From positions 1 through 64,000 of the forward strand of contig NZ_JACIIV010000015.1 in the NCBI RefSeq assembly GCF_014205635.1: a stretch of 64,000 nucleotides of DNA, in the 5' to 3' direction. This document shows, one piece after another, positions 28,437 through 44,208 of this stretch. Position 1 is the first letter of the stretch; every line of letters starts with the position of its first letter. A model generated the notes under the pieces. That model was not told the DNA's origin. It was given only the letters and a program-made list of their open reading frames with translations, and searched no databases. The translations under genes and the position numbers were made by a program. Origin of the DNA: Polymorphobacter multimanifer. Lineage in GTDB: Bacteria > Pseudomonadota > Alphaproteobacteria > Sphingomonadales > Sphingomonadaceae.

Positions 28437-29105
28437 ATGGGGGGTGCCGACGCTGCTGGTCGATCGACCGAACAACTTGTCGAGTTGTTGGCCGTCCATC
28501 TTGACGATGTATCTGTTGCACCCGTTGCCTTGCACGATTCCGCAAGCAGTGTTGATGTTGCGTTACGAATGCTGGGATGCGCCCCGGCGCACCATACGCA
28601 CCGCGGTACTGGCAGCCGCATGGCGCTCACCCTCAGCTACCTGGTCACGGTCCGGCTCGATGATCCGGTCGCCGAACATCGCGTTGCGGCAGCGATCGCG
28701 TTCGCGGTCATGTCGGCGCAGGGCTTCGAGCTCTCCGATCGCAGCGCTGCCGAGACGTGCGTGGCCATCGGACTGCCACCAGCGGCCGGCTGCGTCATCA
28801 TCGCATCGATAGAGCAGGAGCGCGTGATGCCGCGCGCGCCGCTGGTGCGCGAGCCGGCCAGGATCAAGATCTCGCCGGCCGACTGGCTGGACGGCATCGT
28901 GCTCGGCCCCGGCGATGTGCCGGTTGCCGGAGCCTATGTCCGGCTGGCCGATGCGGCGACGGTCACCGGGCCGGACGGGCGGTTTCGCTTCCGCGTCCCG
29001 GCGGAGACGACCGTCGAAGTGACCGCCAGGGCGCGCGACGTCGGCGCCAGTGTCCAGGCCAAGCCTGGCATCCCCGCCAGAATCTCTCTGCCGTTGGAGG
29101 CCTGA
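28437..29105 (+). CDS. Pvc16/DUF4255-like tail-cap protein with a carboxypeptidase-regulatory-like domain
   Basis: A 222-residue protein that opens the contractile-injection cluster. Its middle, LTLSYLVTVRLDDPVAEHRVAAAIAFAVM, fits the DUF4255/Pvc16 N-terminal pattern (tail terminator of Afp/PVC-type systems). The last 75 residues form a small beta-sandwich of the carboxypeptidase-regulatory type (VPVAGAYVRLADAATVTGPDGRFRF). The ATG at 28437 follows AAGGAGAGG. A later ATG at 28620 would remove part of the cap domain. The gene begins 182 bp after bcsZ, so it may have its own promoter, though none is clear. Confidence 0.65.
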   Translation: MGGADAAGRSTEQLVELLAVHLDDVSVAPVALHDSASSVDVALRMLGCAPAHHTHRGTGSRMALTLSYLVTVRLDDPVAEHRVAAAIAFAVMSAQGFELSDRSAAETCVAIGLPPAAGCVIIASIEQERVMPRAPLVREPARIKISPADWLDGIVLGPGDVPVAGAYVRLADAATVTGPDGRFRFRVPAETTVEVTARARDVGASVQAKPGIPARISLPLEA

Positions 29106-29108
29106 CCC

Positions 29109-30323
29109 ATGCGCTACTCCGCTCCAGGTGTTTACATCGAGGAAATCGACAGCGGTCCGCGGCCGATCTCCGCGGTCGGCACCGAAACAGCCGGCTTCAT
29201 CGGCACCGCACCGCGCGCCGATGCGGCGATCAACGAAGCCATTGCGATCAACAACTGGAGCGAGTTCCTGCGCCGCTATGCGGGCGATGGCCTGGCCAGT
29301 ACCGACCTAGCCAATGCAGTGCAGGGCTTCTTCCTGAACGGCGGCTCGCGCTGCTACATCGCCAATATTCCCGAGGGTGCGCCAATCGCCGGCAAGGGTC
29401 TCGACGCGCTCAACCTGGTCGACGAGATCGCCATGATCGCGGCACCCGGCCGCACCGACTTCTCGTCGCATGAAGCGCTGGTGAGCGCTGCCGCCTCGCT
29501 GAAAGACCGGGTCGCCATTCTCGACGGTCCGGCGCAGGTCGACGACATCGCCCGGCTCACCCAGGTTGGCTCGGTGGAAAGCGAGCCGGCAAGCGGTGGC
29601 GACGAGGGCGGCGAGGGCACCGGCGGCGGGCGCCGGTCGCGCGCCAAGGCTGGCGGCCTGCGCCCTCCGATGGACGACAAGGGCTATGGCGCCTTCTACT
29701 TCCCGTGGCTGCGGGCGCGCGACGCGCTCGACCCGGCGAAGATCGTGTCGGTGCCGCCGTCGGGCCATATGGCGGGGATCTTCGCGCGCACCGACGCCGA
29801 ACGTGGCGTGCACAAGGCGCCGGCCAACCTGCCGATCCGCGGTGCACTCGGCCTTACCCAGATGCTTTCGCAGGCGGAACAGGGGCTGCTCAACGATGCC
29901 GGCGTCAATTGCATCCGCTTCTTCACACGAGAAGGCATCCGCATCTGGGGGGCCCGCACCATCGCACCCGCCGAAAGCAACTGGCGCTATCTCAACGTCC
30001 GCCGGCTGTTCGCGATGATCGAGGAATCGATCGCGATCAGCACGCGCTGGGTGGTGTTCGAGCCCAATGATCGGCCGCTGTGGAAGGCGATCGAGCGCGA
30101 TGTCGGCGCCTTTCTCACCCTGCTCTGGCGGCAGGGTGCGCTCGCCGGGGCCAAGCCCGAGCAGGCGTTCTTCGTCAGATGCAACGAGGAGACCAATCCG
30201 CCCGAGGTGATCGATGCTGGGCAGGTGGTGGTTCTGGTCGGCATCGCGCCGGTGAAACCTGCTGAGTTCGTCATCTTCCGCATCGGCCAGTCGCCGACAG
30301 GCACCATGGTCGAAGGCAATTGA
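29109..30323 (+). CDS. Contractile tail sheath protein
   Basis: A 404-residue sheath subunit. The N-terminal YSAPGVYIEEIDSGPRPISAVGTETAGFIG and C-terminal NVRRLFAMIEESIAISTRWVVFEPND, then LWRQGALAGAKPEQAFFVRC, are typical of phage/Afp/PVC sheaths. A Gly/Glu/Ser-rich loop at about 154-185 precedes GYGAFYFPWLRARD. It forms the contractile outer tube. Only one sheath gene is present, whereas Afp and PVC carry three. Three bp separate it from the cap gene. Confidence 0.93.
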   Translation: MRYSAPGVYIEEIDSGPRPISAVGTETAGFIGTAPRADAAINEAIAINNWSEFLRRYAGDGLASTDLANAVQGFFLNGGSRCYIANIPEGAPIAGKGLDALNLVDEIAMIAAPGRTDFSSHEALVSAAASLKDRVAILDGPAQVDDIARLTQVGSVESEPASGGDEGGEGTGGGRRSRAKAGGLRPPMDDKGYGAFYFPWLRARDALDPAKIVSVPPSGHMAGIFARTDAERGVHKAPANLPIRGALGLTQMLSQAEQGLLNDAGVNCIRFFTREGIRIWGARTIAPAESNWRYLNVRRLFAMIEESIAISTRWVVFEPNDRPLWKAIERDVGAFLTLLWRQGALAGAKPEQAFFVRCNEETNPPEVIDAGQVVVLVGIAPVKPAEFVIFRIGQSPTGTMVEGN

Positions 30324-30343
30324 TCCGCTAGAGGAGACCGGAC

Positions 30344-30823
30344 ATGGCAAGCGCTCCCCCGCAAGGGAAATCGGGCGGCGCGGCGGCGCAGGCGCCGCTC
30401 GCGCAGAGCGAAATGTATCGCAACTACAACTTCGTGCTGCGCCTCGATGCCACCGAGGTGCGGTTTACCGAATGCCTCGGCCTCGGTGTGCGGATCGAAC
30501 CGATCCGATACCGGGAATCGGGTGCCGGTTCGATCGTGCGCGCCCTTCCCGGCCCGGTCGACTATGCCGAGGCGGTGCTCCGCTACGGACTGACCGCCAC
30601 GCCCGATCTGTGGACCTGGCTGCAGGAAACCGTCGACGGCACCGTCCGCCGCCGCAACGTGACGATCAGCCAGCTCGACAATGACGGGACGACGGCGCGG
30701 ATCAACTGGAACCTTTATGGTGCCTGGCCCTGCCAGTGGAGCGGCGTGCCGTTCGATGCGCTCGGGCGTGAAGTGGCGATCGAGGAGCTGCACCTGGCCT
30801 TTGACCGGCTCGATCGTTCGTGA
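30344..30823 (+). CDS. Contractile system inner tube protein (T4 gp19-like)
   Basis: A 159-residue tube subunit with YRNYNFVLRLDATEVRFTECLGLGVRIEPIRYRESG, LPGPVDYAEAVLRYGLT and the conserved end LHLAFDRL, as in Afp1/5-type proteins. The N-terminal 20 residues are Ala/Gly/Pro-rich and flexible. It builds the tube through which cargo passes. A single tube gene is present. The stop overlaps the next gene as GTGA. Confidence 0.9.
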   Translation: MASAPPQGKSGGAAAQAPLAQSEMYRNYNFVLRLDATEVRFTECLGLGVRIEPIRYRESGAGSIVRALPGPVDYAEAVLRYGLTATPDLWTWLQETVDGTVRRRNVTISQLDNDGTTARINWNLYGAWPCQWSGVPFDALGREVAIEELHLAFDRLDRS

Positions 30824-31797
30824 CGGCAGCGGCGCAAGTGCTCGCGCACCTCGTGCGGCTGCTGGCAGGCTGGCTGGCAAGCGTGGCGGCGCGGCTGGAG
30901 CCTGCGCATGCCCCGGTCGTCAGCCACGCCGATCTCGCCGCTGCCTTCCCCGGCGCGCCGGCGCATTGGCTCGATGCCGTTGTGACCGGCCTCGACCGGT
31001 CGCACGATGCAAACGCCAGCGCACCCGGAACAGCGCCGCGCATCGAAGCGCACGTTGCCCCCCGCCAGACGGCCAAGGCGCGGCGAAGCGCAGCTCGCGC
31101 CGGGCCGCGCCGCGGCAGTGAACCGCGGGTGCGCGGCACTTCGCCAGCACAGGCTGTTGCACGCGCCGTTACGGCAGCGACTTCACCACAGGCATCGGGG
31201 CACCGCGTACGCCGCAGCATGGCGATGCTCTTCGGCGCCGAAAACGCCGACGTGCCAGGCTCGAAACCGGCATCGGCAACGCTGCCCCAGCGCACCGCAG
31301 CGCGATCACGACCGAACATGCCTTTCGCCGCGCGGCCGCAGTCAACGCATCCTGTGGACAATGGGGCCTCCCCGGTGTCCGGCCGCCGTCCAGTCGATGC
31401 GCCCGCCAAAGCTGTTTTGCCTGCCTCGTCGCCACACCTGAATCGCGCTGCGGATGGTCGCTATCCAGCCTCGTTGCCGCGCATCGAGGCCGATACGAAC
31501 GGGCGCTATCCTGCCTCGCAGAAGGCGATGTATCGCGCCCCAGTCTTTGCCGCTGCTTCCCCGCCGGGCACCGAGCCGCACGCGTTCACCGGTCAAGTCG
31601 GCCACATCCGTCCGAACCCTCTGTTTCCCGGGCGGGTGCTCAGGCGCGGCGCGCGCGATTCTCCGTCTGGCGCTCCACCTGCCGATCGATGGCCCGCGCT
31701 GCCACCGGTGGAGGATACACTGGCGGAGATCGACCCGCCGGCGCTCGACCTGGCGCGTTACCGCCGCGAACAGGAGCTGGGCGGATGGAGCGGGTGA
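30820..31797 (+). CDS. Unknown disordered protein within the injection cluster
   Basis: A 325-residue protein. The first 55 residues are helical and hydrophobic-patterned (VLAHLVRLLAGWLASVAARL). Residues 60-290 are low-complexity, rich in Ala, Pro, Arg and Ser, with a duplicated GRYPAS motif about 20 residues apart. A short acidic end follows (DRWPALPPVEDTLAEIDPPALDLARYRREQEL). It resembles no family I can name. Position between the tube and the LysM adaptor suggests a structural, ruler-like or cargo-related role. The GTG start overlaps the tube stop. Confidence 0.6.
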   Translation: MTAAAQVLAHLVRLLAGWLASVAARLEPAHAPVVSHADLAAAFPGAPAHWLDAVVTGLDRSHDANASAPGTAPRIEAHVAPRQTAKARRSAARAGPRRGSEPRVRGTSPAQAVARAVTAATSPQASGHRVRRSMAMLFGAENADVPGSKPASATLPQRTAARSRPNMPFAARPQSTHPVDNGASPVSGRRPVDAPAKAVLPASSPHLNRAADGRYPASLPRIEADTNGRYPASQKAMYRAPVFAAASPPGTEPHAFTGQVGHIRPNPLFPGRVLRRGARDSPSGAPPADRWPALPPVEDTLAEIDPPALDLARYRREQELGGWSG

Positions 31798-32636
31798 CCT
31801 TTCTGATCGAGCGGACCGGCGAGCGCATCTCCTGCCTGCTCAATCCGGAAGCGCTGGAGGCGCGGCGCACCGCCGGAATCGCCCGCCGCCGCAGTGCCGG
31901 CGGTGCGCTGCTTGCTGCTCCCGCCGGCGACGACCCGTTGTTGCCGACCGGCGGCGGTGTCACCGAATATGATCTCCGGCTGCTGTTCGACATCGATGTC
32001 GCGAATGAAGGGCGTGCGCCTCCGGCTCGAACACCGGCACTGCCGCCCGGCGCTGCCGATGCCGAGCAAGGACCGCAGACGTCGCCGCCAGCATTGCAGC
32101 CCCCGCCGCCGGTGCTCGATGTTCGCAGCCTGACCCAGCCGCTCTGGGCACTTGCGGAAACCGGCATGCCCATCGACGGCGCGCTGGCACTGCAGCGCGT
32201 GCGGGTGATCTGGGGCCGGTCGTGGAACGTGCCTGGCGTGATCACCGCGGTTGCCGAGCGGCTGGAGCGTTTCACGACCGAGGGTGTGCCGCAGCGCTCG
32301 TGGCTCAGCCTCCGCCTGCGCCGGGTGCCCGATGACGGCGCCGCGAGCGCACCACCGCCCTCCCCGATCACGCCGCAGTTCGAGCATCGCGACGGCGCGG
32401 GCCCGGCTGCCGCACCGGAAGACGAGACGATTGTCGTGCCTGTCGATGAGGACGGCTTCATCCTCGAACGCCTCGACCAGATCGCCGCCGATCACTATGG
32501 CGATCCCGCACTTGCGCGCCTGCTTGGTGCATATAATGGGCTCGAAGATCTCCTGCGGCTCGCCGAAGGCCAGGCGCTGCGGCTCCCGTCACGCCGTACC
32601 CTGCTGGCCCTCGCAGGCGCAGAAGCCCGCGCATGA
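31785..32636 (+). CDS. LysM-type tube adaptor (Afp7/CIS tube protein)
   Basis: A 283-residue baseplate-tube adaptor. The N-terminus MERVTFLIERTGERISCLLNPEAL is the CIS tube-protein pattern, the middle includes ALQRVRVIWGRSWNVPGVITAVAERLERFTTEG, and the C-terminal 50 residues (ILERLDQIAADHYGDPALARLLGAYNG) form a LysM-like motif. In Afp/PVC it joins tube to spike. An internal Pro-rich insert lies at about 80-115. AGGAG precedes the ATG at 31785, which lies inside the end of the previous gene. Confidence 0.82.
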   Translation: MERVTFLIERTGERISCLLNPEALEARRTAGIARRRSAGGALLAAPAGDDPLLPTGGGVTEYDLRLLFDIDVANEGRAPPARTPALPPGAADAEQGPQTSPPALQPPPPVLDVRSLTQPLWALAETGMPIDGALALQRVRVIWGRSWNVPGVITAVAERLERFTTEGVPQRSWLSLRLRRVPDDGAASAPPPSPITPQFEHRDGAGPAAAPEDETIVVPVDEDGFILERLDQIAADHYGDPALARLLGAYNGLEDLLRLAEGQALRLPSRRTLLALAGAEARA

Positions 32637-34129
32637 GCGCTCCCGTTCTCCTGGTCGATGGCAATCCGGCCTCGCCGCTCCTCGCCGCCGCGATCATTTC
32701 GATCCGCGTCGAACAGGTGCTGGGCGTGCCGGCGCAACTGCTGTTGCTCTTCGCGGACCTGCCGGCCGAAGGCGGTACCGATCTTCGGCTCGGCACCGCG
32801 ATCACGGTCAAGGCGCGCGACGGGGTCACGCTCATCGAAGCGGAGATCACCGCCATCGCGCACCAGGCAACATCGGGCGGCGGCCCGACCTTGATGGTGC
32901 GCGGATACGACCGGCTGCACCGGCTGCGCAAGAAGCAGGCGGTGCGCGCGCTGCCGGCGACATCGCTGGTCGAGCTCGTTCGCGAAGCCGCCGACGCGGT
33001 CGGAGCAACTCCGGTCACGCCGCCCGGTTTGCCCGGCCCACGCTTTCGGCTGCAGCATGAGGGGAGCGATTTCGACCATCTGCGCGATGCTGCCGCCGAA
33101 TGTGGCTGCTATCTGCGCCTCGGTGACGGCCGGCTCGAAGCGTTCACCCTCGCGGGTGACGGCGCGGACGCCGCGACTCTGCGCCTTGGCGCGAACCTTT
33201 ACGAGGCGCGGATCGAAGCGAGCGCCGAGGCGCTTCGCCGATCGGTCGCCGTGGTCGGCTGGGGGCTCGATGGAGATGCGATCACCGCCCGCGCGACCGT
33301 CGCCGCGCAGGATCAGGTCGATATCGAGGATGGCGGCGCCTTGCAGGGCTTCGAAGGCCTTGGCGACCGCCTGTTGCCCAATCGCCGCGCCGACACCCCC
33401 GAAGAGGCCATGGCGCTCGCACAGGCCGATCTCGATGTGGCGGCGGCGCGCGCCAGGACATTCACCGGCCTTGCCGAGGGCGATCCGGCACTCCGGCCCG
33501 GCCGCCGCGTCAGCGTGGTCGGCGTTGGCCCCCGCGCCGACGGCATGTTCGTCCTCACTCGCGCCGTGCACCAGTTCTCGGCCGAACGCGGCCATGTCGT
33601 CGAGCTCGACACCACGCCGCCCGCCCGCCCGGCGCGGGCGATGCAGTCGACCTCTACCGTCGGGATCGTCACAAACTGCGACGATCCCGAGCAGCTCGGA
33701 CGGGTAAAGGCGCTTTTGCCGGCGTTCTTCGACAATGTGGAGACCGACTGGATGCAGGTGCTGGCCCTGGGTGCCGGTGCCGGCAAGGGTGCGGCGATCT
33801 TTCCCGAAATCGATGACCGGGTGCTCGTCCTCTTTACCGATGGCGATCCGGCCCGCGGCGTGGTGCTGGGTGGACTATGGGGCCGCCAGGCGCTGCCATC
33901 GCCAGCCGATGCCGCGTCCCCGCGCGCCTATGTGCTGCGCACGCCCGGCGGCCAGCAACTGACGCTCGACTCGCACCGTCCCGCCATCCGGCTGGAGACC
34001 GCGGCAGGCGATCTGCTGGACATCTCGCCCGATGGCGCGCGGCTGCATGTCACCCGCGACCTGACCATCGAGGCGCCGGGCCGGCGGTTGCGCATCCGCG
34101 CCGACCGCGTGGACTTCGAGCAAGGCTGA
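32633..34129 (+). CDS. Baseplate spike protein (VgrG/Afp8-like)
   Basis: A 498-residue spike hub. The first 340 residues resemble the gp27-like hub (SIRVEQVLGVPAQLLLLFADLP, FRLQHEGSDFDHLRDAAAECGCYLRL). A gp5-type OB domain follows ([43 protein letters not shown]). The end is a short beta-helix-like stretch (RLETAAGDLLDISPDGARLHV). It is expected to form the trimeric needle beneath the tube. It overlaps both neighbours (ATGA and TGATG). Confidence 0.88.
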   Translation: MSAPVLLVDGNPASPLLAAAIISIRVEQVLGVPAQLLLLFADLPAEGGTDLRLGTAITVKARDGVTLIEAEITAIAHQATSGGGPTLMVRGYDRLHRLRKKQAVRALPATSLVELVREAADAVGATPVTPPGLPGPRFRLQHEGSDFDHLRDAAAECGCYLRLGDGRLEAFTLAGDGADAATLRLGANLYEARIEASAEALRRSVAVVGWGLDGDAITARATVAAQDQVDIEDGGALQGFEGLGDRLLPNRRADTPEEAMALAQADLDVAAARARTFTGLAEGDPALRPGRRVSVVGVGPRADGMFVLTRAVHQFSAERGHVVELDTTPPARPARAMQSTSTVGIVTNCDDPEQLGRVKALLPAFFDNVETDWMQVLALGAGAGKGAAIFPEIDDRVLVLFTDGDPARGVVLGGLWGRQALPSPADAASPRAYVLRTPGGQQLTLDSHRPAIRLETAAGDLLDISPDGARLHVTRDLTIEAPGRRLRIRADRVDFEQG

Positions 34130-34473
34130 TGAAGTGGCTGACCGAAGACGCGCTGCTCGTGTGCGACCATCGGGGCAAGGTCGACAACCGCCCCTCGCAG
34201 GCTTTCGTGCGGATCGAAGGCCGGCGCGTGCTGGTCGCGACCGACCCGGAAGGCCGGGGCATTTCGGGCTGCCCCAATGCCAACCCTCTCGCCGGCATCC
34301 GGCCGTGCCTGACAACGATGAAGGTCGATGAGGGCTATTCGACGCTGGTGCGCATCGCTGGCCGGCCGGTCGCGCTCGACGCGCTGAAAGGCAGGACCGA
34401 CGGCACACCGCCGGCGACGGTCGACTACATCGTGCAGCGGCCAGGGCAGTCGCTGGTCAAGGCGCGGAGCTGA
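34129..34473 (+). CDS. PAAR-like spike-tip protein
   Basis: A 114-residue protein with regularly placed Cys and His (LLVCDHRGKV, ISGCPNANP, GIRPCLTTM) and the phrase RPSQAFVRIEGRRVLVATDPEGR, as in small tip proteins of eCIS clusters. The cysteines suggest a metal-sharpened tip like PAAR/Afp10. The ATG at 34129 overlaps the spike gene stop (TGATG), which also supports partnership with the spike. Confidence 0.7.
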   Translation: MKWLTEDALLVCDHRGKVDNRPSQAFVRIEGRRVLVATDPEGRGISGCPNANPLAGIRPCLTTMKVDEGYSTLVRIAGRPVALDALKGRTDGTPPATVDYIVQRPGQSLVKARS

Positions 34474-34476
34474 GCT

Positions 34477-34911
34477 TTGGTAGCTGTCCGGGCCATCCGC
34501 TTCGAGGGCGCCGGCAACCAGCAGATCCGTCCTGATGCGGGTGCGGGACCGCTGCTCACGCCCGGCCGCCGCCTTGCCTTTGTCGCCGGGCCGGAGGCGA
34601 TCCGCCAATCGATCCTGTTGCTGCTGACGACGGCACCGGGCGAGCGGGTGATGCGGCCCGACTATGGCTGCCCCCTCCACAGGCTGCTGTTTTCCCCCAA
34701 TGATGCGACCACCGCTGGTCTCGCCATCCATTATGTGCGTCAGGCGATCGCCCGCTTCGAGCCGCGGGTGGAGATCGTCCGGCTGGATGCCGAGGCCGAT
34801 CCGCTCGACGTCGGCGGGCTGCTGGTGACGCTCGACTATCGCATCCGCGCAACCGGCGAGACAGCACGCCTCGACCTTGCGATCGCGCTCGACGGAGGAG
34901 GCGGCGCATGA
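34477..34911 (+). CDS. GPW/gp25 baseplate wedge protein
   Basis: A 144-residue gp25-like wedge subunit: GPEAIRQSILLLLTTAPGERVMRPDYGCPLHRLLFSPNDATT matches the conserved gp25/Afp9 core, where the Glu-Arg region nucleates sheath assembly. The TTG at 34477 follows GGAG at 7 nt. Its stop overlaps the start of the J-type gene (ATGA). Confidence 0.92.
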   Translation: MVAVRAIRFEGAGNQQIRPDAGAGPLLTPGRRLAFVAGPEAIRQSILLLLTTAPGERVMRPDYGCPLHRLLFSPNDATTAGLAIHYVRQAIARFEPRVEIVRLDAEADPLDVGGLLVTLDYRIRATGETARLDLAIALDGGGGA

Positions 34912-37421
34912 CGGTGCCCCTGCCACGGCTCGACGATCGCAGCTTTGCGGAGCTGGTCGCCGCCGGCACCGCCCGCGCGCGCGCGCTGTGCCCCGAATGG
35001 ACCGATCTGTCGGTCGGAGATCCCGGTGCCGCACTGATCGATGTCTTTGCCTTTCTCACCGAGGCCCTGCTCTACCGGGTCAACCGCATTCCGCCGAGAC
35101 TGCAGCTCGCCCTGCTCAACCTGGCAGGCGTGCAGATGCGGCCGCCCGCCGCCGCTGTCGTCGAGCTGCTGTTCACCCGCCGTGCCGAGAGCAAGGGCCG
35201 GATCGAGATTCCCGCCGGCACCCGCGTGGCGACCGGCGATGCGAGCGTTGCCTTCACGCTGGTCGACATGGTCGTGCTCGGCGATGGCGACGCCGAGGCG
35301 CGCGGCACGGCGCTGCACTGCGAGCTGGTCGAAAACGAGGCGCTCGGTCGCAGCAGCAACAGCGGCAGCGGCGGCGGTGGCGGGCAGCTTTTCCGGCTGG
35401 CACGCGCGCCGGTGGTGCGCGGGCTGCCGGACGGGCGGGACTTCATGCTGGGCGTCGAAACCGACGACGACCTGTCGCCGGGGCGCGCGCTGCGGGCGGT
35501 CGATGGCCGCGTCTTCGAGATCTGGCGCGAAGTGGCGCATATGGCCGATACTGCGGCGGGCGAGCCGGTGTATCTCCTCGATCGTGGTGCCGGAGTCGTC
35601 CAGTTCGGCCAGGGCAGCAGCGGTGCCGCACCCCTGCCCGACCGGCAGTTGCGAGCCTGGTACCGGCGCGGTGGCGGGGCAGCCGGCAATGTTGCGGCGG
35701 GCACCCTGACCAGCATCGCTGCTGTGCCACAGGTGCAGGTGACCAACCCGGAAGCCGCACGCGGGGGCGCCGATGCCGAGACGATCGAGCAGCTGCTGCG
35801 CCGCGCTCCTTCCGCCATGGCCGCGCGCGATGTCGCGGTCACTGTCCGCGACTATGAGGAGGTGGTGCTCGAGCCGGGGGGCATTTCGCGCGCCCTCGCC
35901 TTCGCCCAGGCGCAGGTCTGGCGCCATGCGGCCCCCGGCGTGGTCGAAGTGCTCGCCGTGCCATCCATCGACGCCGACGCGCATCCGGGCACCGGCATCA
36001 CCGCAGCGGTCGTCGCGTCGCACCGCACCGAAGCCGTGCGGGCCCGTGCCGAAGCAGCGCTCGACCGTCGCCGGCCGCTGGGTGTGCGCGCAACGGTGCG
36101 GTGGGCGAAAGTACGACCGGTCTCGGTGTCCGCGCGCGTCGTCATCGGGCCCGAAGCCGATCCCGCTGCGGTCGAGCACGGCATCTACCGTCGTATCCAC
36201 GCCTTTCTCTCGCCGCTCCGCGAACTTGCCTTCGGCCGCCAGATTCGCGCCTCCGAAGTGTACGAGCGCATTCTGGGCGAGCCCGGTGTCCGCTATGCCG
36301 ACCAGCTCGTCTTCCGGATCGACGAGACGCCGCATCGCAACGTCTGCGACCTGCGCGCCGACCCCGCGCAGCCGGGCCTGTGGTTTGCAGTCACCGACGT
36401 GGCACTCCACCGCAGCGAGGACGATGGCGACAGCTGGTCGGTGCTGCATCTGCAGGAAGGCGAGGCACCGCGCTTCGTCCGCCGCCATCCGACGCGGCCG
36501 GGGCTGCTGGCACTCGGAATCGCGCGGGGCACCGGGAGCGTCGTGCATCTGAGCCGGGACCTGGGGGAGACCTGGAGCCTCGATGCCGCGGCGATCGACG
36601 GCGAGCTGTCCGACGCCGCCTGGCTGGAGCAGGACGGGCAGCCGGCGCTTCTGCTCGCGACCAGCACCGGCCTGCTCCACTTCGCTCCTGGCTCGGACAA
36701 GGTGCCGGCGCCGGTGGTGGTCGATCCGGCCCAAGACGCCAAGGGCTTCTGGGCCGTGGCGACAGCGACATCGAGCTCGGGTCTTGTCCATGTCGCAGTC
36801 GCTGCCCGTGCCAGAGGCGGCGTGTATGTTTCGCCCGCAGGCGGCGTTTCGAACAGCTATCTGGCGCCAGGGCTCAAGGACCATGACGTGCGCGTGCTCG
36901 GTGTGCATGCGACCGGATCGCGGCTGTTCCTCTGGGCGACGATGGCGGCGGAAGCCGGCGAGGAAGGGCATGGCGCACAGCGGCTCGAACTGCGTGCGGA
37001 CGGCGCCCGCGACCCCGCCGGCTGGGTCGAGTTTCGGGAGGGATGGCGCGGCGGATCGGCCCAGGCGCTATCCTTTGCCGGCAATCTCGTCATTGCCGGC
37101 TCCAATCGCGCCGGCGTGCTGACCCTCGATGTCGATGCTGCGGCGCCCGCATGGGTGCCCGCCCGCCTCGATGCCGGCCTGCCGCTGCTGAGCGAACGCC
37201 GATTGCTGCACGAGGTCCGCGCAGTGGCGGCGGCGCGCCGGCCGGACGGCCTGGTGATATTGAGCGGCGGCATCCGCGGCATCCATGCCAGCCTCGACGG
37301 TGGCCAGAGCTACACGCTTGCCTCGGCAATCGAGTATCGCGAGCGCGTGCCGCTGCCACCGCGCTGGCTCTATTGCTCGGGGGAGCACCGCCTCGTCATC
37401 GTTCAGGATGGAGGCGGCTGA
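34908..37421 (+). CDS. Baseplate J-type protein fused to a BNR/Asp-box beta-propeller
   Basis: An 837-residue fusion. Residues 1-475 are a J/Afp11-type baseplate wedge (RARALCPEWTDLSVGDPGAALIDVFAFLTEALLYRVNRIP at the start, VRDYEEVVLEPGGISRALA and YRRIHAFLSPLRELAFGRQIRASEVYERI later). From about 478 the sequence changes to a beta-rich repeat domain with Asp-box motifs SEDDGDSW, SRDLGETW and SLDGGQSY, as in sialidase-like or WD/BNR propellers. Such a domain may bind a glycan or protein. Classic Afp11 lacks it, so it could replace a tail fibre. It overlaps gp25 by ATGA. Confidence 0.85.
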   Translation: MTVPLPRLDDRSFAELVAAGTARARALCPEWTDLSVGDPGAALIDVFAFLTEALLYRVNRIPPRLQLALLNLAGVQMRPPAAAVVELLFTRRAESKGRIEIPAGTRVATGDASVAFTLVDMVVLGDGDAEARGTALHCELVENEALGRSSNSGSGGGGGQLFRLARAPVVRGLPDGRDFMLGVETDDDLSPGRALRAVDGRVFEIWREVAHMADTAAGEPVYLLDRGAGVVQFGQGSSGAAPLPDRQLRAWYRRGGGAAGNVAAGTLTSIAAVPQVQVTNPEAARGGADAETIEQLLRRAPSAMAARDVAVTVRDYEEVVLEPGGISRALAFAQAQVWRHAAPGVVEVLAVPSIDADAHPGTGITAAVVASHRTEAVRARAEAALDRRRPLGVRATVRWAKVRPVSVSARVVIGPEADPAAVEHGIYRRIHAFLSPLRELAFGRQIRASEVYERILGEPGVRYADQLVFRIDETPHRNVCDLRADPAQPGLWFAVTDVALHRSEDDGDSWSVLHLQEGEAPRFVRRHPTRPGLLALGIARGTGSVVHLSRDLGETWSLDAAAIDGELSDAAWLEQDGQPALLLATSTGLLHFAPGSDKVPAPVVVDPAQDAKGFWAVATATSSSGLVHVAVAARARGGVYVSPAGGVSNSYLAPGLKDHDVRVLGVHATGSRLFLWATMAAEAGEEGHGAQRLELRADGARDPAGWVEFREGWRGGSAQALSFAGNLVIAGSNRAGVLTLDVDAAAPAWVPARLDAGLPLLSERRLLHEVRAVAAARRPDGLVILSGGIRGIHASLDGGQSYTLASAIEYRERVPLPPRWLYCSGEHRLVIVQDGGG

Positions 37422-37422
37422 A

Positions 37423-38028
37423 ATGGAGCCCTCGCGCATCCTGCACTATCTGCCGGAGAATTATCAGGCGGCGGGTGCGCGCCAGGACGGGCCCTTGCTG
37501 GCGCTGCTCGCAGCGATGGACGCGATGCACGAGCAAGTCGAAGCCCTGCTTCAGGACATCGACACGATCGTGTCCCCGCATGCTGCACCCAACGACGCCC
37601 TGGTGCTGCTGATGGCGAGCTGGCTGGGGCTCGATCGATATCTCGACGGGACGGCTGACAGCCCGGGCAAAGGAACCCCCAGCTTCCGCGCCGGCACCCG
37701 CCAGTTGCGACTGCTGGTGGCCGAGACCGCCCGGCTCGGGCGTGCTCGCGGAACCCGCGGGTCGCTCACGCGCCAGCTCGAACTGGCGACCGGGCTGACG
37801 GGTTTCGAGATCAATGACGACGACGGGCGGCCCTTTCATCTCGATGTCAGGGCCCCTGCCGCCGCACGGCCGCTCGCGAAGCTCGTCGAGCGCATCATCG
37901 AGGGCGAGCGGCCTGCGCATGCGACCTGGTCGATCGAGTTTGCCGAGGCGCCGAACGCTTTGGATCCCGCTCCGGATCCCGCTCCGGAACCAGTCCCAAC
38001 CCCTGCGCCGGAGGCATCAGAGCCATGA
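37423..38028 (+). CDS. gpI-like tail/baseplate protein (Afp12-like)
   Basis: A 201-residue protein starting RILHYLPENYQ, then HEQVEALLQDIDTIVSPHAAPNDALVLLMASWLGLDRYLD, the pattern of phage tail protein I / Afp12 that closes the baseplate periphery. The last 30 residues are a Pro/Ala-rich tail (PAPDPAPEPVPTPAPEASEP). GGAGG at 37411 precedes the ATG at 37423 by 7 nt; an earlier ATG at 37408 lies in the end of the J gene. Confidence 0.82.
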   Translation: MEPSRILHYLPENYQAAGARQDGPLLALLAAMDAMHEQVEALLQDIDTIVSPHAAPNDALVLLMASWLGLDRYLDGTADSPGKGTPSFRAGTRQLRLLVAETARLGRARGTRGSLTRQLELATGLTGFEINDDDGRPFHLDVRAPAAARPLAKLVERIIEGERPAHATWSIEFAEAPNALDPAPDPAPEPVPTPAPEASEP

Positions 38029-38071
38029 TGCACCGGCGTTCCCCTGCTTTGGCTGATCGGGAGTCATGACC

Positions 38072-39028
38072 ATGCCGAGTTTCGAAATTCCGGACGGACC
38101 CACCACCGTGGCGCTGAAAGGCGGCGGCCAGGCGCCTCAGACCGGCGCAATCCAGTTCAGCGTCACCAATCGGAGCGGCGGACCCCGCAGCGGGCGGCTG
38201 AGCCTGCGCGTGACCGGCGATACCAGGGCCGAATGGTTCAAGATCGAGGGCGAAACCGAGCGCAATTTTCTGGCAGGAGAGACGCACACCGCAAGCGTGG
38301 TCATCTCGGTCCCGCCAGGCACGGCGCCGGGCGATTATCCCTTCCGGCCGCGGGTGGTGGCGGTGAACGATCCGGACAATGACTTTGCCGACGGCCCGGC
38401 CTCGACCCTGAGGGTGGATGCGAGCGCGCCGCCACCGCCCAACCGGACCTGGCTATGGATCCTGATTGCGGTGATCGTGGTCGTCATCGTCGGTGGTGTG
38501 GCGTTTCTGGCCTTCCGCCCCGATGGCGACGAGCCTCCGCCCGCCGACCCGCCGCCAGTGGCCGATCCCGTGGCGACGCTGCCCGAGCTTTCTGGAAGGC
38601 CGCTGGCGGAACTGGAGGCGCTTGCCACGCAGCACGGCTTCCAGGTGACGGTCGCCGAGCGTGTCGAGGGGCTCGAACCGGGACATATCGTCAGCGTCTT
38701 TCCCGCGGCCAACACGCCGATCACAGCCGATCTGCGTGTCACGGCGATCGTCGATCCGGGTATTGCGGTGCCCGATCTGCGCAACAAGCGCTTGGCGGCC
38801 GCGCAGAACGAGATTCGGCAGGCGCGGCTCACGCTTTCGGAGATAAGGCAGAGTTGCCGGCAATCCGGCGTCGACGATCTGGTCATCAGCCAGGAGCCGG
38901 CGGGTGGCGTCAGGGTCAAGCTGAACCAGCCGCTGGTGATCACAATCACCGATGTGCAGACATCGTGCCTTGTCTTCCGCCCCGAAATCCTTCGCATTCC
39001 TTCGGATCTCGTGTTCAGGCGGATGTGA
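38072..39028 (+). CDS. Single-span membrane protein with two PASTA domains
   Basis: A 318-residue protein. Residues 1-120 form an Ig/COG1470-like beta domain (SVTNRSGGPRSGRLSLRV, FLAGETHTASVVISVPPGTAPGDYPFR). There is no signal peptide; one membrane span covers about 126-148, followed by an acidic Pro-rich spacer. Two PASTA domains sit at about 168-228 and 231-296. Charge distribution suggests the Ig-like domain is cytoplasmic and the PASTA pair periplasmic. PASTA domains elsewhere bind peptidoglycan. As part of the injection operon it could anchor the machine to the inner membrane and wall. ATG 38072 has GGGAG at 8 nt; ATG 38066 is too close to it. Confidence 0.75.
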   Translation: MPSFEIPDGPTTVALKGGGQAPQTGAIQFSVTNRSGGPRSGRLSLRVTGDTRAEWFKIEGETERNFLAGETHTASVVISVPPGTAPGDYPFRPRVVAVNDPDNDFADGPASTLRVDASAPPPPNRTWLWILIAVIVVVIVGGVAFLAFRPDGDEPPPADPPPVADPVATLPELSGRPLAELEALATQHGFQVTVAERVEGLEPGHIVSVFPAANTPITADLRVTAIVDPGIAVPDLRNKRLAAAQNEIRQARLTLSEIRQSCRQSGVDDLVISQEPAGGVRVKLNQPLVITITDVQTSCLVFRPEILRIPSDLVFRRM

Positions 39029-39031
39029 CGG

Positions 39032-39604
39032 ATGCGGCTAGCCGTCATCGTCCTGCTGCTCCTGGGGCTGAGCTTCGTCGTGCTGCAGGTGGCCGGCGCG
39101 CGGGAGGACAAGACTGACACGGACCGCGGATCATCGGGCAGCGGCTGGACTCCACCGATGAAGAGTGGCGAAGTCGATGAGGAGGCAGCAGAAGACTGGG
39201 AGCCGCCGGCGTTGATGGCGGGTGTGCTGCGCGTCTTCGGAGGCTTCGTGCCTGCAGTCGCGGTGGAGCAACCCGAAGTGATCGTCCGCGCTGGGGAAGA
39301 GGCCGTGCGATCGGTGCCGCCGGACACCGATAGCCGGATGCGGGCGGCGCGGGCGCGGCTGGTTGCCGGCAGTGTCGCGACGATATCCTTCCCCGTTCCC
39401 GAAAAGGGTCGGCGCACGCTCTGTCTCTGCCTGCCCGGTCAACCGATGACGCGAGACGCCACGACCGCCTGCCCGGCCGGCTGGCGCGACGAGAATATAC
39501 CCTTTTGCCAGCGCGGCAGCGACGTGACGATGATCCCGGTCTCCGAGCTTGGCGCGCAATTTGTCTATGCGGCGCCGCGCGGGGCAACGGTGCGGATGGA
39601 ATAG
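39032..39604 (+). CDS. Unknown signal-anchored protein at the end of the injection cluster
   Basis: A 190-residue protein with an N-terminal membrane anchor or signal (LAVIVLLLLGLSFVVLQVAGA), a polar acidic stretch, and a C-terminal domain with four cysteines (LCLCLPGQ, ACPAGW, FCQRGSD) that may form disulfides in the periplasm. No family is recognised. It starts 3 nt after the PASTA gene, so the two probably act together. Confidence 0.6.
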   Translation: MRLAVIVLLLLGLSFVVLQVAGAREDKTDTDRGSSGSGWTPPMKSGEVDEEAAEDWEPPALMAGVLRVFGGFVPAVAVEQPEVIVRAGEEAVRSVPPDTDSRMRAARARLVAGSVATISFPVPEKGRRTLCLCLPGQPMTRDATTACPAGWRDENIPFCQRGSDVTMIPVSELGAQFVYAAPRGATVRME

Positions 39605-39605
39605 A

Positions 39606-40298
39606 TCAGCCGTGTCGCAGGCTCGCCACCGCCTTGATCGTGCCGATGATTGCGAAAACGAAGAGCAGCAGCAGAAGGACGAGCCCGATGACCGCAATGA
39701 CCACGGCAATCGCCGCGTCCGCGATGCTGATCAGGACAGCGGGTACCAGCGCATGGACAAAGGCAATGCCCCAGGTCAGGCCGAGCGACAGCAGCACATA
39801 GAAGAGCAGGCCCTTGTTCTGCAGGAACCGCTGCTGGGCGAGCAGGAGAAAGAGGGAAAACAGCAGCTTGAGTGCCATCACCAGTGTCAGGGTCGCCGCT
39901 GCGCCGCTTTTTGCAAAACTGCCCCAGCCTGCGACATAGGCGATGGTCCCGAAAGGTACTGCCAACAACAGGCCGACCATCAGCATGAGCAGCCCGAAGG
40001 CCAGCATCAGCGCTGCAAAGCCGGCCAGAAGCGCAAGCAGGGACAGGAGCAATGTCGTGATCGGCTGGACGCGACCAACAAGCTCGCGCGGCACGGGCAC
40101 CGAAAGGCTCTGGCAGAGCAGATTGTAGAGGAGGGTGCCGTCGATGATGAAAAGATACTTGATGGCGAGCCCGGGCACTTCGTTTTCACCACGCGCAAAC
40201 ATGTCCGAAAGAAAATCGGCGGCTGTCAGTTCAATCAATGCAGCTAGCGCGAGCAGCGCGACGGCGAAAATGAAGAAAGGCAGTCGAAGTTGATCCAT
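39606..40298 (-). CDS. Multi-span membrane protein, convergent with the injection cluster
   Basis: A 230-residue hydrophobic protein with about five or six membrane spans, starting LRLPFFIFAVALLALAALIELTAA and ending with a long hydrophobic helix. The loop QQRFLQNKGLLFYVLLSL is its most distinctive polar part. The stop lies 1 bp from the stop of the previous plus-strand gene. Tight convergent packing hints at shared function, but no role can be read from sequence. Confidence 0.6.
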   Translation of the reverse strand: MDQLRLPFFIFAVALLALAALIELTAADFLSDMFARGENEVPGLAIKYLFIIDGTLLYNLLCQSLSVPVPRELVGRVQPITTLLLSLLALLAGFAALMLAFGLLMLMVGLLLAVPFGTIAYVAGWGSFAKSGAAATLTLVMALKLLFSLFLLLAQQRFLQNKGLLFYVLLSLGLTWGIAFVHALVPAVLISIADAAIAVVIAVIGLVLLLLLFVFAIIGTIKAVASLRHG

Positions 40299-40517: not shown

Positions 40518-40832
40518 ATGACTGCTTCAAGCACAACGAGCAATCCCACAGTCAAGAAAATCCTCACCGTGCTCGGCTATCTCGGGGTTGCCGCAGCGAC
40601 GATCCTGCTCATCTATTTTTTCGTCCTTACCCGCGAGATATGGATGATCACGCTCGCCGCGACAACGTTGTTCGTGGCAGTGGTGGGCCTGATCGGCGGT
40701 CTTTCTGCGAAGCCGAAATTCGATTACAAGAAGAAGATGCTTGGCGGCGAGATCACCGGCCTGCCCGACTGGGCAACGATCGTCGCACTGGCAGGCCTTG
40801 TCGCCAGCCTTATCATCGGCGCGGTGACCTGA
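40518..40832 (+). CDS. Small three-span membrane protein
   Basis: A 104-residue protein with three hydrophobic segments (VLGYLGVAAATILLIYFFVL, WMITLAATTLFVAVVGLIGGL, WATIVALAGLVASLIIGAV) and a basic loop KPKFDYKKKML. GGAAAGG precedes the ATG at a good distance. It is unrecognised. About 220 bp upstream, shared with the divergent membrane gene, is moderately AT-rich and holds a TATAAT at 40360 without a clear -35 partner. Confidence 0.6.
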   Translation: MTASSTTSNPTVKKILTVLGYLGVAAATILLIYFFVLTREIWMITLAATTLFVAVVGLIGGLSAKPKFDYKKKMLGGEITGLPDWATIVALAGLVASLIIGAVT

Positions 40833-40894: not shown

Positions 40895-41545
40895 TCAGCG
40901 CAGCGTCGGGAAGACGCCAAGCAGGTCGCGCTGCTCGGGCAGGATGTAGACTATGCCGACCGTGCCGAGGAAAAGCGGGCGGACCACATCATCGAAGAAA
41001 TCGGCGGGCACATTGATGCAACCGTACGAGATGCGGTTGTCATCCGGGCTGTGCGACATCAGGCGGCGCTGGCGCTCGTCGGATGGCTTGCCGGTGACGA
41101 CGCGGTGCAGCGACAGGCTGTTGGCATAATCGACCCATAATATATCGTTCTTGCCGAGGTCGTTGCCAAGCTCCGCGACATAGCGGCCGGCAGCGGTGAT
41201 GCGATCTTCCGGCCCGATGGCGGACAGAGGCCGGTCGCCGATGCCGGGCGGATTGATGTCGCCGCGAGCGAGCCCGAGCAGCACGGGTGACGTGCCGCGC
41301 AGCGTGCCGTCGGCGGCATAGGCGAAGGCGCGGGCATTGTGCTTGTCGACGATGACATACGCCATGCCGGCGTTGTCGCCACCGGCACGGATGCGATCAG
41401 CGATCGTGGCAACATCGGCTGATGGCATCGTCATGGCCAGGGCCGATTCCGCAGCAGCGCCCGCAGCATAGGCACCGGCCGGCGCCGCCACGAGCGCCAG
41501 CGCGAGGCAGAGGTGCCGCAAGCGGCGCTCGGCGGCCCGGTCCAT
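40895..41545 (-). CDS. L,D-transpeptidase-family (YkuD-type) protein
   Basis: A 216-residue exported protein: signal peptide (LCLALALVAAPAGAYAAG), then a catalytic core with SLHRVV and the SYGCINVPADFF motif that supplies the active cysteine and the His/Ser context of YkuD transpeptidases. It would crosslink peptidoglycan or attach proteins to it in the periplasm. The ATG at 41545 overlaps the stop of the TPS exoprotein gene (TGATG), so translation is coupled. The last gene of that operon. Confidence 0.8.
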   Translation of the reverse strand: MDRAAERRLRHLCLALALVAAPAGAYAAGAAAESALAMTMPSADVATIADRIRAGGDNAGMAYVIVDKHNARAFAYAADGTLRGTSPVLLGLARGDINPPGIGDRPLSAIGPEDRITAAGRYVAELGNDLGKNDILWVDYANSLSLHRVVTGKPSDERQRRLMSHSPDDNRISYGCINVPADFFDDVVRPLFLGTVGIVYILPEQRDLLGVFPTLR

Positions 41546-44154
41546 CAATTCCGCGACGGCTTGGGCTTCAGCACGGGGCGCGGTGCCGGCGCTACGGGTG
41601 CCGGCTGTGCAACAGGCTCAGGCGCGACTTCGACCGGAGCCGGTACCTCTGCCACCGGAACTGCGGGCATCCTGACTCCACCATCGAACACGGCGAACTG
41701 GATCCCGGCGAGCGGCATGCCGGTGACCACCGCAGGAATCGGTGTGGTCGAGATCGGCGACACCGGGAGCGGAGCGGGTGCCGGCGTCGGGGTGGGGGTA
41801 GGCGTCGGAGTCGGAGTCGGAGTCGGGGTCGGAGTCGGGGTGGGGGTAGGCGTCGGGGTAGGCGTTGGCGTTGGCGTTGGCGTTGGCGTTGGAGTGGGTG
41901 TGGGGGTCGGGGTGGGCGTGGGCGTTGGTGTCGGCGTCGGAGTCGGAGTAGGCGTCGGAGTGGGGGTAGGCGTTGGAGTTGGGGTTGGGGTTGGGGTTGG
42001 GGTTGGCGTTGGCGTTGGGGTCGGGGTTGGTGTTGGTGTGGGGGTCGGTGTCGGTGTGGGGGTAGGTGTTGGCGTGGGGGTGGGTGTCGGTGTGGGAGTA
42101 GGTGTTGGCGTTGGAGTTGGCGTTGGAGTGGGGGTAGGGGTCGGAGTCGGGGTCGGAGTAGGCGTAGGCGTCGGAGTAGGCGTAGGCGGTGTGACGACGC
42201 CAGCCGTGCGCTGCCCGGCTTCGCAGCACGAGCTCGCAAGTGCGTATTGCGCGGCATCGGCGCCGCCCAGCGTGTAGCCGCTGAAGCTGACGCCGCCGTC
42301 TTCACCCGGCACGGCGCTGTCGAAATCGGCCCGCGCATCGGGTCCGGCGACGAGTGTGACACCCGTCGGCAGCCCCGAGGTCGCGGTGCTGTTGAAGCCG
42401 CTGAGCACCACCGCGGTGGTCCCGTCGCCGACCTTTGTCGCCGTCGGGAAAACCAGCATCCGGGCATCGATCGTGGAGCCGCCGCTGAGAGTGAAGCGCG
42501 GCGTGAAGTTCGTCGGCGTCGCATAGGAGGTCGGGTTGTAGTTGATGGTGACGAGCGCCGTCGGGCCGGTGACGACGATCGGCGGCGCCGAAGCGCCGAA
42601 GATCACCGTGCCGCCCTCGACTCCCGGGCCGGTGCCGTCGAAGCCGGCGATCAGCGTCATGCCCGCTGGCACGCCGAGCGACTGCGCCGGGATCGTCGTG
42701 CCTCGGGTCAGCACGATCGCGCCCTGGATAAGAAGGTCGTGCCCGGCACAGAGCACCATGTTGCCGTCGGTGACGGTGAGCGCGGCGATGGTCTGGATGG
42801 TGACGTTGCGCCCGGCATTGACGATCATGCTGCCGTTGGTCGTCGTCATCGCCGCCGCCAGGTTCACATCGCGGCCGCAGCACAGCACGATGTTGCCATT
42901 GGTCGCGGTGATCGACGCGTTGACGTTGATGTCGCGCACCGCATTGAGCCGCAGCGTGGTGGTGCTCGGGCTGGCGGTCCAGGCGATCGCTTCGTTGACG
43001 AAGATGTCGCCATTGCCGGTCGCCGACGTGAACAGGTTGGTGGTCGGCGGCGTGCCGCTGACGGTGTTGTCGTTGCCCGGAAAAGTGCTGATGACGATGC
43101 TGTTGGTGACGAGCAGCGCCGAAAGCGCCGCGCCCGAGATGTTCTTGCCGGCCTCGATCGTGAAATCCTCCGGGTCGATCAGCCAGGTGCCGGTGGTGCC
43201 GCTCGCTGCCAGCGTCGTGATGCGTGCCGTATCGGCGATGTTGACCGAGGCCGCCGAGGTTTCGATGAAGCCGCCGTCGCCGCCATCGGGAGCGCTGGCA
43301 TCGAGGCTGCCGTCGATGGTCATGGTGCCGCTGGTCATGTCGCCGAGCAGCAGGATGACGCCGCCGCGGTTGGCAACGGTCTGCGCAACGATGACCCCGG
43401 TGTTGTTGACAGCGGTCTTGAGCAACTGCCCCGCGGCCTGGGCGGTGAGCAGGACCCGGCCGCCATTGGCCGCGATCAGCCCGCCGTTCTCGACGATGGC
43501 CTGGATGGCGCCGCGCTCGATGGCGACGTTGAGGAGGCCGTCGCCGGCAAAATCGAGCGTCACCGCCTCACCGCCGACGAGCGCCACGCTGCCGAGCTGC
43601 GCCTGGATCGTTCCCTGGTTGCTCACCTGCGAGCCCATCAGCGCAACAACGCCGCCATCGGCATTGATGCTCCCCTCGTTGCGGACGCTGCCGCCACTGC
43701 CTTCGAAGCGGAAGCGGTTCGCCATGAAGTCGCTGTCGGAGATGCCGAGCGTCGAGGCGACAAGGCCGCCGACATTGACCTGGGCGTTGCGACCGAAAAG
43801 GATGCCGTTCGGATTGACGATGAAGACCCGGCCATTGGCCGACATCTGGCCCATGATGGCGCTGGGGTCCTGGCCAAGGACGCGGTTGAGCGTCACCGAC
43901 TGGGCGTTGGGCTGGGCGAAGGTCACGCTCTCGCCCGTTGCGATGCCGAAGCTCTGCCAGTTGACGACGGCATTCTGGCTCGACTGGTTGATCGTCAGCG
44001 CCGCGTTTGCAGCCGAGATCGTCGCACTGCCGGCGACAACGACGCCGCCGCCGGGAAGTGCAAGCGCTGCGCCGGGCAGCGACACCAGCGCCGCGACCAT
44101 GGTGCCGGCGAGGAGTCGAATGCGATGGGCCTTGGCGAGAACGGCGAGAAACAT
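41545..44154 (-). CDS. Two-partner secretion exoprotein (TpsA) with FHA N-terminal domain and Thr-Pro repeat
   Basis: An 869-residue exoprotein. After a long signal region ([19 protein letters not shown]) comes the haemagglutinin-activity/TPS domain with [56 protein letters not shown] and GGLVAST. Beta-helix repeats follow ([42 protein letters not shown]), with an MBG-like segment. Then come about 67 Thr-Pro dipeptides and a Pro/Val-rich end. The inner ATG at 44154 (AAGG upstream) gives a better start than ATG 44187. It lies 55 bp downstream of its transporter gene. Confidence 0.85.
41783..42187 (-). repeat. Hexanucleotide array encoding about 67 Thr-Pro dipeptides
   Basis: About 405 bp made of degenerate 6-bp units. 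On the coding strand each is ACN-CCN; both third positions vary from unit to unit, so the array is repetitive mainly at protein level. It lies between the secreted beta-helix part and the C-terminus of the exoprotein. Length may differ between strains by slippage or unequal exchange. Confidence 0.9.
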
Positions 44155-44208
44155 GGGCTTTACCTTGTGAAAATCATGCGTCCGCACCGGGTTCGGTGGC
44201 GGAACGGA

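Follow-up and report, generated by a model that had tools for sequence, protein, structure and literature searches.

In Polymorphobacter multimanifer, 12 genes on the forward strand, from position 28437 to position 39604 of a stretch of 64,000 nucleotides (hereafter the window, the first 64 kb of a 106-kb contig), encode a compact contractile injection system (CIS), and the question that they raise is where such a machine acts: on other cells after its release, outward from a surviving producer or at the producer's own envelope. The cluster itself is confirmed. All 12 reading frames are open, adjacent genes overlap or are separated by at most 37 bases, and the gene order is repeated in other phyla, far above chance expectation. 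A sequence-only reading of the window had recognized here a CIS of co-oriented genes with a single sheath and a single tube gene, and the family scans bear this out: sheath, tube, spike, gp25 and J-type wedge lie within one locus, the operon holds one sheath and one tube gene, and the 3.92-Mb genome has one PF04984 sheath. The set also reaches beyond 39604, where a convergent gene for a protein with six transmembrane (TM) segments belongs to it. Our best explanation, whose chances we put at about even, is that this system, known here from its genes, is a cell-retained and membrane-docked CIS of its own lineage, related to the cytoplasmic (type IId) CIS of Streptomyces.

By family comparison, the sheath, tube, spike, gp25, J and I proteins are firmly or fairly assigned, while the assignments of the LysM adaptor, the PAAR-like tip and the cap have support only at the family level; the part list of the sequence-only reading is upheld for the former and is weaker for the latter. 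The sheath matches PF17482 (E 1.4e-18) and PF04984 (6.3e-17), and its top chain in the PDB is 8bky_A (identical sequence in 9gtp; E 3.9e-95), followed by 8bl4_V. The tube matches PF06841 (1.9e-31) and, above cut-off, TIGR02241; gp25 matches PF04965 (5.5e-26); J matches PF04865 (2.2e-22), TIGR02243 (2.4e-66, above cut-off) and PDB chain 9gtp_1K (E 2.9e-40); and the VgrG-type spike matches PF04717 (7.7e-22), with PF05954 (4.2e-7) just below and NF033848 below their cut-offs. The I-type protein matches Tail_P2_I (PF09684) just above cut-off (3.5e-4) and TIGR02242 below it (4.6e-8). CIS_tube is found in all eight members of the LysM adaptor family (in the window protein below cut-off) and a LysM domain in two of them, and the family profile matches 9gtp_P (E 1.1e-9). 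In the tip family, of whose ten rows one was read out of frame, PAAR_motif is found in three (best E 0.0037) and not in the window protein, and the Cys and His columns are nearly invariant. None of the six cap proteins scanned has a Pvc16 match in Pfam; the cap profile weakly matches 9gts_0A, a "Pvc16 N-terminal domain-containing protein" of a Streptomyces CIS (E 0.0023), and this match is outranked by those of the cap's C-terminal domain to SusC-type proteins. The predicted model of the cap has a predicted local distance difference test (pLDDT) score of 74.6 and a predicted template modelling (pTM) score of 0.53.

The J protein extends beyond its family match. The TIGR02243 match stops at residue 469 of 837, and the C-terminal extension looks like a BNR-type beta-propeller, given the strand pattern of its model, Asp-box-like motifs, weak Pfam matches and profile matches. 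In the AlphaFold model (pLDDT 78, pTM 0.81), the extension forms a series of strands read as propeller blades. With a loose pattern, at least one Asp-box-like motif is found within the last 400 residues of 27 of the 28 clade proteins (two or more in 18, none in that of Paracoccus) and, over the whole length, in 1 of 17 outgroup proteins. The Pfam families BNR and Sortilin each fall weakly on the extension in two of six members, the window protein being below cut-off, and the extension profile matches BNR-type and glycoside-hydrolase propellers as well as Sec13 chains. Identity to the window protein in five relatives is 60, 41, 41, 28 and 27% for the extension and 60, 43, 43, 34 and 32% for the whole of J. 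A class-wide propeller search yielded matches in 28 of 385 genomes, at full length in P. multimanifer alone; the 27 others are short and are tentatively read as other propellers. In a tree of 44 J rows from which the extension columns had been left out, the 27 extension-bearing rows form one clade (100/100), which belongs to a 34-row group (90/97) together with Streptomyces, Deinococcus, Treponema, Oscillatoria and one Nostoc row.

Relatives with this J protein are spread over unrelated bacteria and plasmids. A contig scan found five (Sphingomonas horti, two Myxococcus, Pseudaestuariivita and Sulfitobacter; loci L022-L026), all with identical gene order. J proteins with the full extension occur in 2 of 396 Sphingomonadales genomes, P. 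multimanifer and G671 (at the S. horti coordinates), 11 other Sphingomonadales having J proteins that match over the J part only, and in 22 of 195 Myxococcota genomes (one match partial). Fifty plasmid records have a J match, five of them at full length (Deinococcus AJ005, Paracoccus MC1862, two records of Rhodovulum sulfidophilum and Rhodovulum MB263), and four of these five loci were read (L115-L118). Altogether, 24 sheathed loci were examined, made up of the window, the five loci L022-L026, 14 Myxococcota loci (out of 18 retrieved) and the plasmid loci L115-L118. They span Alphaproteobacteria, Myxococcota and Deinococcus, with four on plasmids, and 23 sheathed rows group weakly in the sheath tree (80/83). 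Judged from these sequences, the compact CIS set is a lineage of its own. No description of it was found in open-access PubMed Central (preprints lay outside its scope), nor by a paper search on eCIS (extracellular CIS) subtypes, nor by a term search of one eCIS review. Another compact CIS lies on a plasmid of Treponema succinifaciens (L126), with gp25, a J protein of 988 residues matched over the J part only, and then a 401-residue sheath and a tube.

The sequence-only reading had ended its list with membrane proteins after the I gene. They are present, and they are not add-ons, because they are conserved together with the CIS, as is the six-TM gene. The first is a bitopic protein that matches PASTA (1.4e-13) and, below cut-off, NPCBM_assoc (7.8e-4), with a TM stretch at residues 132-150 by hydropathy. 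Its profile matches in all 24 sheathed loci, and in each of the four plasmid copies the annotation names its product a PASTA protein. Among six members scanned, four have PASTA repeats and two have NPCBM_assoc similarity in the N-domain; no PASTA was found by Pfam in the Cys-rich protein of L022. The ectodomain thus differs by host, with PASTA in sphingomonads, Rhodobacterales and Deinococcus and Cys-rich repeats in Myxococcota, where it has 20-44 Cys in 14 of 14 rows (L087-L099 and L104); that of L022 has 28. The C-terminus is probably exported, because the ectodomain is rich in Cys and the N-domain is poor in it (0-1 Cys in all 19 rows). Over 15 Myxococcota rows, mean identity is 64% in the N-domain and 48% in the ectodomain. 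Two tandem genes for such receptor-like proteins are found in L097 (13082-15319).

The profile of the small bitopic protein matches in 20 loci (the window, L022-L026, L087-L099 and L104), weakly in L115 and not in L116-L118, where a protein of 149-162 residues with an N-terminal TM stands at the same position. The six-TM gene lies within the piece read in 23 of the 24 sheathed loci (cut short in L092), and in L104 (genome G913) the match is on another contig. In most loci the gene follows the operon and converges on it; in L025 and L026 it shares the operon's direction, and in L116 it lies upstream. Its profile matches 18 of the 195 Myxococcota genomes, which are the 22 with a propeller-bearing J minus four sheathless ones, with 0 of 4 matches in the latter and 0 of 173 in the other Myxococcota genomes; it also matches 2 of 396 Sphingomonadales genomes, the same two that carry the propeller-bearing J. 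A sheathed cluster was read in 16 of the 18; in G898 a sheath of 410 residues shares the contig of J, and in G918 one of 396 residues lies on another contig than the partial J match. The link of the six-TM gene to the sheathed machine is strict, one joint loss included. The tip, bitopic, small bitopic and six-TM profiles have no match in L062-L066, five eCIS loci from the same family of bacteria that are larger or have several sheaths, as read in pieces that end at 19 kb. Genes for proteins resembling the small three-TM protein adjoin the cluster in L024, L117 and L118 and, weakly, in L026, the profile having been built from these genes plus one unrelated row.

Variable genes are inserted between the small bitopic and six-TM genes in L087-L092 and L097 and after the small bitopic gene in L104, among them one peptidase M23 and one PD40 match in L089 and one PD40 match in L088; the window has nothing comparable. 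Membrane proteins with an HExxH-type motif are encoded beside the cluster in S. horti (L024, 15366-16295, reverse strand) and Deinococcus (L115, 13046-13960, forward strand). They are weakly related to each other (27% over 119 residues, E 5e-7), and a DUF4157-like identity was rejected as they have no match in Pfam.

Between the tube and the LysM adaptor, an open frame of 277-441 residues is found in 19 of 19 loci. The window protein, which has no family match, is probably disordered, as judged from its composition; its family has invariant columns across six rows, with an "HWL"-like stretch close to the N-terminus of most members and a "WP" stretch at the C-terminus. By position, it is a candidate for a short tape measure or a lumen cargo. 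In four Myxococcota genomes (G893-G896; L100-L103), only the tube, this protein, the propeller-bearing J and I are left, surrounded by metabolic genes at a shared syntenic site. The PF17482 sheath search found nothing in G894 and G896, and the sheaths of G893 and G895 lie on the same contig, at least 79 kb from the four-gene module. Pairwise ratios of nonsynonymous to synonymous substitution rates in this module are 0.11-0.31 for the tube, 0.17-0.47 for J, 0.17-0.40 for I and 0.42-0.90 for the disordered protein; the tube, J and I are under purifying selection. The sheathless rows nest within the Myxococcota clade of the J tree, and therefore the sheath was probably lost and selection maintained the other genes, with the disordered protein as the least clear case. 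Its presence in the module ties this protein to the tube and baseplate.

Features of the compact CIS locus in the window, with the evidence for each
Feature	Position	Strand	Evidence
Cap candidate, possibly a Pvc16-like N-part and a CarboxypepD_reg C-domain	28437..29105	+	Weak profile match; model
Sheath, single gene, 404 residues	29109..30323	+	PF17482, PF04984, PDB chains
Inner tube, single gene	30344..30823	+	PF06841, TIGR02241
Protein rich in Ala, Pro and Arg, probably disordered, conserved over short stretches at both termini	30820..31797	+	Composition, position
LysM-type tube/baseplate adaptor (Cis7-like)	31785..32636	+	CIS_tube in family; 9gtp_P match
VgrG-type spike, GPD-like and OB parts in one chain	32633..34129	+	PF04717, PF05954
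PAAR-like tip candidate	34129..34473	+	PAAR_motif in relatives; nearly invariant Cys/His
gp25 wedge	34477..34911	+	PF04965
J-type wedge (about residues 1-470), extended by a part like a BNR-type beta-propeller (about 463-837)	34908..37421	+	TIGR02243, PF04865, 9gtp_1K
I-type baseplate protein	37423..38028	+	Tail_P2_I, TIGR02242
Bitopic protein with an Ig-like N-domain, a single TM and two PASTA repeats, in the fibre/CisA position	38066..39028	+	PASTA, hydropathy
Small bitopic protein with a TM at the N-terminus and a probably exported domain	39032..39604	+	Profile matches in relatives
Six-TM protein, convergent	39606..40298	-	Co-occurrence with sheathed cluster
Small three-TM protein, possible accessory, weak case	40518..40832	+	Similar neighbours in relatives

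Among solved structures, the sheath, J and LysM adaptor are nearest to chains of the Streptomyces coelicolor CIS, and the cap points there weakly; 9GTP and 9GTS are models of that CIS, which is reported to have no tail fibre. No tail-fibre gene was recognized among the 12 window proteins, in scans of limited sensitivity for fast-evolving fibres. S. clavuligerus likewise has a single-chain VgrG, a 1381-residue low-complexity open reading frame after its first tube gene, at the same position as the disordered protein of the window, and, after J and I, a gene for a 584-residue protein with one hydrophobic, TM-like stretch, which by position is presumed to be its CisA; it differs in having two tube genes, where the window has one. 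The J extension, the Ig-like protein with its PASTA or Cys-rich ectodomain, the additional six-TM and small TM proteins and the PAAR-like gene all set the window apart from the Streptomyces CIS. The window CIS may work like these cytoplasmic systems. The thylakoid-anchored CIS of Anabaena is reported to be likewise held at a membrane via a baseplate extension and a TM-bearing protein; there, the TM is carried by the fibre-like Cis13 and the extension by Cis12, an arrangement not found in the window, where the TM proteins are separate and the extension is on J. The CIS of the S. davawensis type also occur in clusters across distant phyla, one of them on a plasmid, but are described as defined by a large, DUF4157-bearing tapemeasure-related effector (Tme), and none is encoded in the window operon.

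CisA of S. coelicolor is reported to be bitopic with its N-terminus inside, to be required for contraction and to be encoded at the usual fibre position, and its predicted partner is the baseplate component Cis11, which from chain 9gtp_1K we read as the J protein. The domain gained by J and a folded cytosolic domain at the CisA position would fit a contact between the two. Dedicated membrane proteins in place of target-binding fibres suggest action at the producer's own envelope, and we infer that the CIS most likely docks to a membrane complex that senses the envelope and triggers firing. Particles would be assembled in the cytoplasm, where the baseplate, by J with its propeller, would contact the cytosolic Ig-like domain of the bitopic protein, the periplasmic ectodomain of which (PASTA, or Cys-rich in Myxococcota) may sense the condition of wall or envelope. 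The six-TM and small bitopic proteins would build the docking site. Upon a signal, contraction would drive spike and tube through the producer's own membrane, with death, lysis or release as the outcome, and little or no loaded toxin would be required. PASTA domains bind peptidoglycan fragments, and the firing signal may thus be wall damage. In PVC (Photorhabdus virulence cassettes), an AAA ATPase is described as helping effector loading; the lack of an ATPase gene in the operon suggests that the payload is the piercing itself or the disordered protein. We further propose, tentatively and with somewhat less than even confidence, that this is a receptor-gated CIS, in which an exchangeable periplasmic sensor on a constant cytosolic adaptor tells the propeller-bearing baseplate to fire, with the six-TM protein as a purpose-made docking protein, and that one Myxococcota lineage lost the sheath and membrane parts while the tube, the disordered protein, the propeller-bearing J and I survived as a module that does not contract and took on a different role.

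Several observations weigh against a membrane-docked CIS of Streptomyces kinship. The top PDB chain of the tube is Pvc1 (E 4.4e-13), with Afp1 close behind. When compared by profile with the protein presumed to be CisA in S. clavuligerus, the bitopic protein shows no similarity, and its Pfam domains are other ones; the place of the propeller-bearing J clade beside Streptomyces is an open fork in the J tree. Because of the CisA comparison and this fork, we do not file the system as type IId. The positive-inside signal of the bitopic protein is weak (41 Lys or Arg before the TM and 30 after it, over 19 rows), the propeller could bind an external target, and the genome also holds one type VI secretion system (T6SS) sheath gene, on another contig. 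Finally, the relatives are not independent, and co-occurrence counts therefore overstate the number of events.

An unlikely alternative is a classical eCIS, released by lysis, in which the J propeller replaces fibres and binds glycans of target cells and the membrane proteins serve release or self-protection. The glycoside-hydrolase and BNR propellers among the matches of the extension speak for it, as such propellers often bind glycans. The extension is, however, conserved about as well as the whole of J, whereas fibre domains are reported to evolve fast, and the differing ectodomains of the membrane protein and the link of the six-TM gene to the sheathed cluster would be left unexplained. 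The gene order had been read from sequence as that of Afp (antifeeding prophage) and PVC clusters. It differs from the Afp order, with the cap first and PAAR before gp25; no fibre or ATPase was recognized among the 12 proteins, and solved structures place the sheath, J and LysM adaptor closest to the Streptomyces CIS. Afp and PVC share with the window a sheath, tube (nearest Pvc1), LysM adaptor, spike, tip, gp25, J and perhaps cap, but they have several sheath and tube paralogues, a fibre, a tape measure and an AAA ATPase, in contrast to the single sheath gene and single tube gene of the window operon. No Afp15-type AAA ATPase was found among the 12 window proteins or annotated inside the four plasmid operons, and an AAA-family protein that the annotation of L115 places upstream of its operon was read by eye as a ParA-type partition protein. 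The window CIS is not of the Afp/PVC type.

Equally doubtful is a T6SS-like secretion machine of other descent, which would fire outward through a trans-envelope docking complex and let the producer survive. With at least three dedicated membrane proteins, two of them with probably exported domains, the cluster would resemble the T6SS as a membrane-linked contractile machine if our preferred docking is right, and on plasmid pRSMBA of Rhodovulum MB263 (L118, 1-1920), genes annotated as T6SS VgrG and PAAR lie next to the compact CIS, on its upstream side. Unlike in the T6SS, neither a sheath-recycling ATPase nor a membrane subunit (TssJLM) was recognized among the 12 proteins of the operon, the membrane proteins matching PASTA or no family; no effector gene was recognized there either, and a T6SS sheath gene is already present in all four alphaproteobacterial genomes checked. 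The compact CIS as the sole contractile machine of its genome is ruled out by the T6SS sheath gene.

A decayed prophage tail or domesticated tailocin, which every structural part, drawn from phage-tail families, and the sheath (matches in 2569 of 50,697 phage records, 25-39% identity among the rows shown, as any contractile sheath may have) would allow, is very improbable and was rejected, as the sequence-only reading had held, on the phage-record searches with J and sheath and on the PHROGs scan: J matches 2 of the 50,697 records (one phage; 37% covered at 29% identity), the 12 frames are open with their order kept across phyla, and no capsid, portal, terminase or integrase was found by PHROGs among 10 other window proteins, by Pfam among flanking proteins or in the annotation of the four plasmid stretches, this head-gene evidence covering the window proteins scanned and those four annotations.

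In the window, a cellulose operon (GH8, BcsC and BcsA-BcsB by Pfam) lies upstream of the CIS genes, as had been noted from the sequence. This neighbourhood is not general, as the (incomplete) annotation of the four plasmid stretches lists no cellulose gene; a functional link was dropped, and the adjacency is taken as chance. By Pfam, the cellulose synthase glycosyltransferase and BcsB parts fall within one open frame of 1498 residues (18959-23455, forward strand). A two-partner secretion pair (TPS and ShlB in Pfam) is encoded on the reverse strand at 41545-44187 and 44209-45933, and its exoprotein has a very long Thr-Pro repeat tract ahead of its end.

The lineage bears on how the firing of intracellular CIS is controlled. 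In Streptomyces, CisA is reported to be required for firing, with its signal and partner still to be established. The system described here gives a cleaner test case, with a small operon, an exported domain that varies by host and a six-TM gene that tracks the sheath, and it offers natural sheathless derivatives and plasmid-borne copies.

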